Source: Defluviitaleaceae bacterium
Lineage (GTDB): Bacteria; Bacillota; Clostridia; Lachnospirales; UBA5962
DNA: 32,533 nt
Direction of reading: 5' to 3'
Assembly: GCA_009778165.1 (NCBI GenBank)
Contig: WRKF01000174.1
Location: forward strand, 1 to 32,533
Each line of letters begins with the position of its first letter. The first letter of the stretch is position 1. The translations under genes were made by a program, and so were the position numbers. Shown here in pieces: positions 6,939 to 22,817 of the stretch. Below the pieces are notes generated by a model. That model saw nothing but the letters and a program-made list of their open reading frames with translations, did not search any database and was not told the DNA's origin.

Positions 6939-6948
6939 GCTTTCGTAT

Positions 6949-7100
6949 AACTTCAGGGCAGGGTGAAACTCCCGACCGGCGGTAACAGTCCGCGACCATC
7001 TTAATCTACGTTATATGCCTTATATTAAGATGCCGATTCGGTGCAATTCCGAAACCGACAGTGAAGCGTATTAAACGCTAAGTCTGGATGGAAGAAGATG
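6949..7100 (+). ncRNA. FMN riboswitch (RFN element)
   Basis: The conserved blocks are present in order: CTTCAGGGCAGGGTGAAA, then CCGACCGGCGGTA, then AGTCCGCGA. A variable stem follows (CATCTTAA with TTAAGATG), then GATTCGGTGCAATTCCG, AAACCGACAGT and AGTCTGGATGGAAGAAG. This is the FMN-sensing aptamer. Together with the terminator at 7131-7163 it should repress ribU when FMN is plentiful. Confidence 0.97.
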
Positions 7101-7130
7101 ATACGCATCTTCGTGCAGTTTGACTGCTTT

Positions 7131-20256: not shown

Positions 20257-20260
20257 AGAT

Positions 20261-20461
20261 ATGTATGAAACAACCCATTGTGAAACTGAAATTGAGGCTA
20301 TTAGGTTAAAATTGTATGAAGAAACCAAACATATGACACCGGAAGAGCATACAAAATGGAGTAATCAACGTGGCCAAAAACTCGCCGCTGAGTTCGGGTT
20401 CACCATAGTACCCTCTACTGATATGCGGGGAGCGGAAAGGGACAGAAGCGGAGAAAAATAA
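20261..20461 (+). CDS. Small conserved-looking protein paired with the PIN gene
   Basis: The protein has 66 residues from ATG at 20261, with a perfect GGAGG 9 nt upstream; that site lies inside the end of the PIN gene, so expression is linked. It is hydrophilic and probably helical (TEIEAIRLKLYEETKHMTPE), then HTKWSNQRGQKLAAEFGFTI, with a charged tail. I do not recognise a named family. It could be the antitoxin, or an accessory partner in addition to the RHH protein. Confidence 0.75.
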   Translation: MYETTHCETEIEAIRLKLYEETKHMTPEEHTKWSNQRGQKLAAEFGFTIVPSTDMRGAERDRSGEK

Positions 20462-20505
20462 TACAGAAATATAAATATTATATTCTACAATAGCAACAAT
20501 AGCAC

Positions 20506-20552
20506 AAACAAGCCTTTTTCGATGCTTCAAACACTAAAAAAGGCTTGTTTTT
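20506..20552 (+). terminator. Rho-independent terminator after the PIN cluster
   Basis: ACAAGCCTTTTT pairs with AAAAAGGCTTGT over 12 bp and is followed by five T residues. It closes the toxin-antitoxin-like cluster. Confidence 0.85.
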
Positions 20553-20609
20553 AAGGTTTTTAAAATTCCCATGATTTTACATTCGGCAAAAAAACGGCAC
20601 AAAAGAGTC

Positions 20610-20756
20610 TCACATAGAGTGTGACATAAAGAGTTTCATAGTTCGCATTAGAAAAGTATCTTTAAAAGCAATTTCTAAAGACTCAACCAAGAATTTCCGC
20701 CATTTCCCCCCTTGATCCATAATCTTAAAAACAGGTCTGTCAACTTTTTTTGCTAC
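20610..20756. repeat. Dispersed repeat, copy B
   Basis: This is a diverged copy of 12938-13076, with an exact 23-bp core (20631-20653) and similar ends. On the minus strand a frame through the core (SNANYETLYVTLYVRLF) stays open in both copies for at least 13 codons, but there is no start codon or ribosome binding site for copy B. The rest of the 500-nt gap before the next gene holds a terminator at its left end and the promoter at 20887. Confidence 0.7.
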
Positions 20757-20886
20757 ACTAAATTTATTGATTTTAATCTTCATTTTCATTATACCAACAA
20801 GATTGGAATGTTCTAAAACCCACTATCAAGCGGGCTTTAGTAGTGTCTTTTGTGGGCAAGTGCGAAATTTGTGGCTAAATAGCCCT

Positions 20887-20915
20887 TTGACGCTATATAC
20901 CTCTTGGTATATAAT
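20887..20915 (+). promoter_or_regulatory. Promoter of the condensation-domain/tetR operon
   Basis: TTGACG (20887-20892) and TATAAT (20910-20915) are separated by exactly 17 nt, about 50 nt upstream of the start at 20968. It is one of the best promoters in the window and is covered by operator-like palindromes. Confidence 0.85.
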
Positions 20916-20930
20916 ATACTTGCAGGTATA
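20896..20930. promoter_or_regulatory. Two TetR-type operator candidates over the promoter
   Basis: TATACCTCTTGGTATA (20896-20911) and TATACTTGCAGGTATA (20915-20930) are each palindromic and share TATAC....GGTATA-type half sites, with centres 19 bp apart. The first covers the spacer and the start of the -10 box, the second the transcription start. The operon encodes a TetR repressor, so autoregulation is the simple reading. Confidence 0.75.
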
Positions 20931-20967
20931 TAAAATATTAAGTGCTTATGCACAGGAGGGGCTAATC

Positions 20968-22227
20968 ATGGAAAATAAGCTGCAAAGTGAAACCGCTTAT
21001 CTGTTTTCGCCAAATATCAACGTATGCTTTAGTGTTAATATCAAGCACGGTTTTACTGTCGAATCAATTCAAATGGCGATAGATATTGTGGTCAAGCGCC
21101 ACCCTATCCTTTTAACAACCATTAGAGCAAATAATAACGGCGAATGGTTTTATGACAGCGGTGGCAAGGTTGATGTCCAATTTCTGAACGAAAAGACTAC
21201 GTTGACTGATTGGTACGCAAAAAATGACTGTATTCCGTTTCAGTGGGATAAGGGGCTTATTAAAATAGGCGTTTTTGTAGAAAGCGATTCTACCGACATA
21301 ATGATATTAGGGCATCACATCCTCGGTGACGGTTTGGGCTATTTGAATCTAATCCGAGATATTTTGTCCGCTTTAGATGGCAAATCCTTTGATAAAGCGA
21401 GCGTGTTGCCTAAAGAAAATTTTGTTAAGGATTCGGGAAAAGCCGGATTATTGATGAAATTGTTCGCAAAGTCATTAAACAAGAAGTGGGGCAAGACAGG
21501 AAAACGATTCACCTATAACGAGTACACCGAGCTTTTCCATGGTTACCGCAAAGAACTCCCGCCCGGTTTATATTTAAACAACATAGAATCTGTTGACACA
21601 ATTCGTGCTACTTGCCAAAAAGCCAGGTTGACGGTAAATGAGATTTTTGCGGCAGCGTTTGTATTCGCACTAAATAGGTTGGGGCAAAAAGAAGTGAGGC
21701 TTGGCTGTGCAGCAAGCACACGTAGCGAAATGTACCACGACGTTTCAGACGCAATGGGAAACTTCACCACAGGCATTGCTACAGTCGTTGCTTCGCCGGA
21801 AGAAGTGCCTGCGAGATTGCGTGAAAAGCTAAAAAAGCCCAAATATCGCTATCAAGTAATACATCTGCTAAGTTTACTTGACCCTTCTCTAATCTCATCG
21901 GCACCGTTCGCCGCCTATGGAGATTATGATAATATAGCGGCGAAAAAGCTCGCCACAACATTGGGCGAACAACGCACAAACAAATCCTTTGGCATTTCAA
22001 ACCTTGGGGTTCAGACACCGGGCGACTATTCATTCGGGGTAAGCGTTCAGTTTATTTGCCCCGCTTTCCCGCAGAATTTCTTAACAGTGGGACTGATAAC
22101 GATTGATAACACGGCGAAGTTTGCCCTTCGCTACAGCACATCAGATTTATCCGAGAATCAAGCCATTACCCTCTTTGATGATGCTAAAGAATATCTCGCC
22201 AAATTTATTAAGGATGGCAAGATATGA
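20968..22227 (+). CDS. Stand-alone condensation-domain (CoA-dependent acyltransferase fold) protein
   Basis: The protein has 419 residues from ATG at 20968, with AGGAGGGG upstream; a longer frame extends through the promoter and is not real. The catalytic HHxxxDG motif is intact as HHILGDG (H116, H117, D121). The later part has FGISNLGVQTPGDYSFG (near residue 350), in the position of the conserved DFG-like region of condensation and alcohol acetyltransferase proteins. There are no carrier or adenylation domains, so it is not a full NRPS module. It could join an acyl group to an alcohol or amine. It shares an operon with tetR; the substrate is unknown. Confidence 0.82.
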   Translation: MENKLQSETAYLFSPNINVCFSVNIKHGFTVESIQMAIDIVVKRHPILLTTIRANNNGEWFYDSGGKVDVQFLNEKTTLTDWYAKNDCIPFQWDKGLIKIGVFVESDSTDIMILGHHILGDGLGYLNLIRDILSALDGKSFDKASVLPKENFVKDSGKAGLLMKLFAKSLNKKWGKTGKRFTYNEYTELFHGYRKELPPGLYLNNIESVDTIRATCQKARLTVNEIFAAAFVFALNRLGQKEVRLGCAASTRSEMYHDVSDAMGNFTTGIATVVASPEEVPARLREKLKKPKYRYQVIHLLSLLDPSLISSAPFAAYGDYDNIAAKKLATTLGEQRTNKSFGISNLGVQTPGDYSFGVSVQFICPAFPQNFLTVGLITIDNTAKFALRYSTSDLSENQAITLFDDAKEYLAKFIKDGKI

Positions 22228-22817
22228 AAAACAACAGCAGAAACGACATTCTAAAATGGGCATTGACTTTGTTTTCGCAAAAGGGCTACGAAAGCACAAG
22301 CCCTAATGAAATAGTTGAAGCGGTCGGAATCACCAAGCCTACGCTATATTATTTTTTCGGTGATAAAGAGGGCTTGCTAGACAGCCTGTTAAGCGAAAAC
22401 TACACTAAACTAAATGAAACGTTAGACCGGTTGTGTACTTATGTACCCGACCCCGAAAATTACGCAAATGACGTTAATCCGCTTTTGATACGTGTAACAA
22501 AAGGGATTTTTGAATTTGCAGTCGCAAACAAAGAGTTTTATATGCTCAACATTTCACTTAACTCCGCTCCAATAGCATCAAAGTCAGCGGTAATTGCCGA
22601 AAAATACAGCTGTCGGCAACATGAAACGCTAACACAAATGTTCGCAAGCATTTCAGCCATACACAAAAATCTGGAAGGAAAAGAGGAGGCGCTTGCGTTT
22701 AGATTCATCTCTTTGCTTAATGCCCATATTATTTTGTGGTTTAGAGGTAAAGGCGATTTATCAGATACAGTCGCTGAATCTATTGTAAAAGGCTTCATGC
22801 ATGGAATCTTTTCATGA
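22224..22817 (+). CDS. TetR-family transcriptional regulator
   Basis: The protein has 197 residues. The N-terminal helix-turn-helix is typical: ILKWALTLFSQKGYESTSPN, then EIVEAVGITKPTLYYFFGDK (about residues 9-48). The C-terminal ligand domain is ordinary in length. Its ATG overlaps the stop of the condensation-domain gene (ATGA), so both are co-translated. It probably represses the operon through the palindromes at 20896-20930. The ligand is unknown, perhaps the substrate or product of the enzyme. Confidence 0.92.
   Translation: MKNNSRNDILKWALTLFSQKGYESTSPNEIVEAVGITKPTLYYFFGDKEGLLDSLLSENYTKLNETLDRLCTYVPDPENYANDVNPLLIRVTKGIFEFAVANKEFYMLNISLNSAPIASKSAVIAEKYSCRQHETLTQMFASISAIHKNLEGKEEALAFRFISLLNAHIILWFRGKGDLSDTVAESIVKGFMHGIFS

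Follow-up and report, generated by a model that had tools for sequence, protein, structure and literature searches.

The window analyzed here, a stretch of 32,533 nucleotides from a Defluviitaleaceae bacterium, carries two overlapping genes on its plus strand. The first, cond (20968–22227), encodes a stand-alone, condensation-fold acyltransferase-like protein of 419 residues (P0002) with an intact HHILGDG motif, and its start codon, ATG at 20968, has AGGAGG upstream. The second, tetR (22224–22817), encodes a TetR-family repressor of 197 residues (P0001) with the recognition helix GITKPTLYYFF. The stop of cond and the start of tetR overlap by 4 nt (22224–22227). On the same strand, a −35 box TTGACG (20887–20892) is followed after 17 nt by a −10 box TATAAT (20910–20915), an arrangement shared by 23 promoters of the TetR subfamily described below. 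Two palindromes, to which no strand is assigned, lie on this promoter. The predicted operator 1 (site 1, TATACCTCTTGGTATA, 20896–20911) occupies the promoter spacer, like the operators of its relatives, and shares 2 nt with the −10 box. The putative operator 2 (site 2, TATACTTGCAGGTATA, 20915–20930) overlaps it by 1 nt and covers the expected +1 position; one of its half-sites is perfect, and the other has a single substitution. The palindrome centers, 20903.5 and 20922.5, are 19 bp apart, a spacing that would set two dimers about 1.8 turns apart. The first-pass annotation had described twin palindromes with this spacing on a 17-nt-spaced promoter, and both were found there.

P0001 matches the TetR_N domain (PF00440) with 55 bits (E-value 6.7e-15), against a curated cut-off of 24. 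A TetR profile (A1), built from 16 homologs with P0001 as its first row, retrieved 25 members at E-values of at most 1e-28 from 392 genomes of the order, a count that includes the window's genome. Since 16 of these 25, among them the truncated copy of G479, supplied the rows of A1, the scores of those 16 are partly high by construction; the nine members outside A1 (G489, G544, G616, G625, G640, G660, G689, G696 and G702) score from 1.0e-74 to 4.4e-53. The weakest full-length member lies at 4.4e-53 and the best non-window match among 348 sampled genomes of the phylum at 2.0e-24, and the subfamily is therefore sharply bounded. The score of the window TetR (5.2e-75, with P0001 itself in A1), its pairwise identities of 39–44% with the TetRs of G352, G408, G465, G418 and G472, and its place in the tree indicate that it belongs to this subfamily. 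The nearest TetR to that of the window, 62% identical to P0001, occurs in WRBD01000001.1, a contig of a Defluviitaleaceae MAG (G479, loci L035/L136); it lacks about the first 55 residues and has lost the DNA-binding domain. The related-locus search returned a single relative for P0001 and none for P0002. NCBI places the Defluviitaleaceae within the Lachnospirales, which, judged by this one relative, would be the order of the subfamily. The six other genomes listed from the window's family gave no match, at the thresholds used, to either of two profiles, one of them A1; hence no close ortholog of the locus is present in these six. Lateral acquisition of the locus is therefore possible. In the literature searched, which left subscription journals mostly outside its reach so that absence is unproven, we found no publication on a TetR–GH13 or TetR–cond module of this subfamily or on its name, and no mention of the exact operator TATACCGTTCGGTATA.

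The palindrome accompanies the subfamily closely. The first-pass annotation had proposed a comparative search at orthologous operons, and this search was positive: the exact motif TATAC-N6-GTATA is present in the operon promoter of 23 of the 24 full-length members. In 22 of the 25 members, no more than 450 bp separate the site from the tetR match; that of the window is located 1.3 kb upstream of tetR, before cond, as tetR comes second in its operon. Only two of the 25 members lack the site, the truncated G479 and G465. The family form can be written as TTGaca-17-TATAAT, with TATACC-N4-GGTATA in the spacer. In G472, the other cond-linked case, the promoter is TTGACT-17-TATAAT and the operator has the identical offset. 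The spacer measures 17 nt in 21 of the 23 operator-bearing promoters and 18 nt in two, and all 23 have hexamers with at most 3 of 12 mismatches to TTGACA/TATAAT; these hexamer scores depend in part on the site, since the promoter was taken as the best one within a small range around it and the TATA of the operator is also part of the −10 box. An extra site between tetR and the GH13 gene was observed at six loci (G432, G391, G352, G303, G408 and G301), and in three of them an outer end of this internal site reads CATACC or GGTATG.

The recognition helix is conserved to the same extent, as [IV]TKP[TS][LM]Y occurs in 23 of the 24 full-length members. The sole exception is G465, whose helix reads VGKPMVYYYF and whose promoter spacer holds a changed operator, TTTACCGAGCGGTAGG; the two changes together count as one event only. 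At 43 control loci with other TetR genes, no site was present within 450 bp of tetR. These controls comprise the 29 non-window loci listed from the phylum sample, which contained many more matches, and 14 of the non-subfamily matches from the order; one of them (L099) has no tblastn match to P0001 and was positioned by the search itself. A KPTLYYYF helix was found in two of the 43 control TetRs. One of these (L065, in G433) belongs to a MATE–tetR operon whose promoter carries twin sites, 1.4 kb upstream of tetR, and the sequence of the other (L064, in G471) starts inside the preceding gene, so that its promoter lies outside the data compared. It is thus conceivable that another repressor binds the palindromes in trans and that tetR is a mere neighbor, given that the G433 operon combines this operator with a TetR from outside the subfamily. 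However, the operator travels with this particular subfamily in nearly all of its full-length members, and in G465 it changes along with the helix; we therefore consider such a trans-acting repressor quite improbable. Because of the promoter conservation throughout the subfamily, the coupled exception in helix and operator, and the negative control loci, site 1 is very probably the operator for autorepression. The autorepression through the palindrome predicted in the first-pass annotation thus receives strong support from comparative sequence analysis, and the outcome named there as refuting it, loss of the palindromes at orthologous loci whose recognition helices are conserved, did not occur.

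A search of 156 genomes with the pattern TTGACN{4,7}TATACCN4GGTATA gave 11 matches, eight at subfamily operons and three inside dnaJ, versus none for the reversed control. This search tests precision rather than recall, because the pattern was derived from the family, the eight operons were already known, and five of the 13 subfamily members in the sample were missed, such as those with TTGCNA promoters in G331, G400 and G416. The perfect TATACC-N4-GGTATA inside dnaJ occurs in four genomes (at 2560 of L005 in the window's own genome, and in L174–L176), which serves as a warning of false positives.

Another explanation would treat the palindromes as RNA hairpins, a terminator, or chance products of an AT-rich promoter, and the region is indeed AT-rich with TATA repeats. 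However, site 1 precedes the position where transcription is expected to start and would therefore not be transcribed from this promoter, and over the palindromes every Rfam family stays below its gathering score. Moreover, the arms are conserved, the centers are freer, and the place between the −35 and −10 boxes is fixed in divergent genomes, as fits a protein-binding site. This explanation is very improbable. The RNA-family reading received no support; the only Rfam matches in the window were FMN and TPP riboswitches elsewhere (6945–7103 and 954–1061, respectively, on the plus strand).

The status of site 2 is less clear. Sites 1 and 2 are the only exact TATAC-N6-GTATA matches in the whole window. 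At least one exact match occurred in 3 of 5000 dinucleotide shuffles of the intergenic region 20257–20967 and two in none, and a same-armed pair of any 5-6-5 dyads 16–40 bp apart occurred in one of 5000 such shuffles. With up to two mismatches allowed, the window contains 28 matches, against a shuffle mean of 20.08 (sd 4.79), and five of 100 shuffles reached 28. The proposal in the first-pass annotation that two dimers bind the promoter is no more than plausible. Given site 1, the exact arms of site 2 arose within 20912–20967 in just 12 of 20000 shuffles, and site 2 is unlikely to be a chance feature. On the other hand, under an operator matrix built from 22 primary operators of other genomes, site 2 scores 1.37 and ranks eighth in the window, while site 1 scores 19.69 and the primary operators of the family 18.62–27.29; and none of the orthologous promoters examined has a tandem pair like sites 1 and 2. 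The alternative, that only operator 1 works and operator 2 is an accident of the TATA-rich start region, draws on this low score and on the missing tandem pairs. It also gains from the second sites of the relatives, which lie elsewhere, in the tetR–GH13 gap of the six loci mentioned above, and from the frequency with which any 5-6-5 dyad arises in 20912–20967 given site 1 (1815 of 20000 shuffles). Against it stand the rarity of the exact arms, the similar layout of the MATE–tetR operon in G433, whose second site likewise has one substitution, and the internal site of G352 with a comparable substitution. We give this alternative slightly less than an even chance. Site 2, rarer than chance yet degenerate and with no counterpart in the orthologs, is plausible as a candidate operator only.

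Our survey of the window's own genome, a draft of 189 contigs that is 91.2% complete, suggests that the TetR acts locally. Ten exact TATAC-N6-GTATA sites were found, and since the reversed control also gave ten, the motif is not enriched genome-wide; the window's pair are the only two of the ten that share a contig. With at most one mismatch, there are 24 sites versus 20 in the control. Outside the window there are 22, of which 18 fall within ORFs of at least 100 residues and four are intergenic, with promoter-like pairs carrying 3 to 5 of 12 mismatches. Because the site count is close to that of the control and 18 of the 22 outside sites lie in ORFs, a genome-wide regulon is unsupported and the regulator appears to be local. 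One intergenic site, TATACCATATTGTATA at C99:2911–2926 (G000, position 1312 of L157), shows 3 of 12 mismatches in its promoter-like pair, equal to the weakest promoter in the family, and is a possible second regulatory target. The other perfect TATACC-N4-GGTATA of this genome is on contig C135, inside dnaJ.

The partner enzyme of the window belongs to the condensation superfamily. P0002 matches PF00668 with 39.7 bits (E-value 3.4e-10; gathering score 30.6), and Condensation is its only Pfam domain. No adenylation or carrier domain was found in P0002 by Pfam or in the neighboring ORFs read by eye, which speaks against an NRPS condensation domain. The HHxxxDG motif is present at all 12 cond-family loci checked, the window's included and the broken copy of G479 left out. 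A single-sequence structure model of P0002 was unusable (mean pLDDT 36.3), and a plasmid search gave no match to P0002. Among the relatives of cond, the copy in G485 lacks the palindrome, and reading 14.3 kb there by eye revealed no TetR; that in G410 is cut off by the end of its contig. In G479, cond contains an in-frame TAG and the truncated TetR lies about 50 kb away; joint decay of the two genes is compatible with this single case from an 80%-complete genome. Flavodoxin- or FMN-reductase-like ORFs lie close to the relatives L149 and L153, and at L145 (G314, 1138–2811) the condensation-fold domain shares one ORF with a flavodoxin-like N-terminus (by eye). By eye, TetR-like genes also adjoin, or lie near, the more distant condensation-fold relatives L149 and L152.

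Elsewhere in the subfamily, the usual partner gene is different. The 1.5-kb flanks of tetR contain a GH13 alpha-amylase-like match in 22 of the 25 members (those of G689 and G696 resting on weak 25% matches), cond in two, and neither in one (G479); ORF order was read for 14 order-mate loci. The partner in G352 (P0003) resembles alpha-glycosidase, neopullulanase and cyclomaltodextrinase structures. No GH13 gene adjoins the window tetR, which has cond instead, and the best GH13-like matches of the draft genome are distant and on other contigs (E-values 3.0e-12 and 1.9e-11). In the TetR tree, the window row pairs with the truncated G479 (100/99), and G472 pairs with the GH13-linked G418 (100/99). 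Moreover, the gene order is opposite, cond–tetR in the window and tetR–cond in G472. A single clade of the two cond-linked TetRs and G479 was rejected by the AU test (p-AU 0.0011), this group having been named after the tree was viewed. Two separate TetR–cond associations fit these relationships best; one old association, with GH13 regained later, is a less favored possibility.

Taken together, the observed positions, conservation, linkage and tree lead us to infer a simple circuit. The TetR, as a dimer, would bind operator 1 in the promoter spacer and block RNA polymerase, so that the whole cond–tetR operon, tetR included, would be repressed until a small ligand releases the protein. A weaker second contact may come from operator 2, which covers the start site. 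The enzyme slot of this circuit, normally taken by GH13, holds the condensation-fold protein in the window genome and in one other of those searched. We regard this account as a whole as the best explanation, with a probability of roughly 0.87. The link drawn in the first-pass annotation between the acyltransferase-fold enzyme and a sensed small molecule is a conjecture, and the usual partner of the regulator is a GH13 gene, not cond. More speculatively, a portable cassette of TetR and promoter-operator may have twice exchanged GH13 for the same condensation-fold family, with both enzymes acting on the class of molecule that is sensed, for instance a glycosidic or sugar-like compound hydrolyzed by one and acylated by the other; we consider this extension unlikely.

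Our analysis now proposes an operator that can be put to the test, for a TetR subfamily whose name we did not find in the part of the literature open to us, and a correspondence between the KP[TS][LM]Y helix and TATACC-N4-GGTATA. The locus would also provide a natural case in which an enzyme of unrelated fold has taken over the partner position, with the sensor and its operator retained. Since the sensor is shared, the substrate of the condensation-fold enzyme could be approached by identifying the ligand that releases the repressor.

TetR, AcrR and QacR are local autorepressors with a TetR_N domain, a palindromic operator over the promoter, and the regulator gene beside or in the target operon. 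The window system resembles them in its TetR_N domain, the palindrome over the promoter and the regulator in its own operon; it differs in its operator, TATACC-N4-GGTATA, in its partner enzyme, and in having no efflux pump. The twin TATAC-N6-GTATA sites of the G433 MATE–tetR operon (L137, 3910–3967) are alike in layout, by eye, with the first located in the spacer, the second beyond the −10 box, and TetR encoded second, but the G433 TetR lies outside the subfamily (helix VKKPTLYYYF), its partner is an efflux protein, and the centers are 27 bp apart. With stand-alone condensation-superfamily acyltransferases (PF00668; PapA5-type, 8s6l; AATase, PF07247), P0002 shares HHxxxDG, a length of about 420 residues and the absence of adenylation and carrier domains, although its sequence similarity to them is only distant. 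Compared with the TetR–GH13 cassette of 22 genomes, the TetR subfamily, the operator and its position in the promoter are the same, whereas in the window cond precedes tetR and a single promoter carries both palindromes. The kind of circuit is ordinary, and the exchange of the partner gene is what is unusual.
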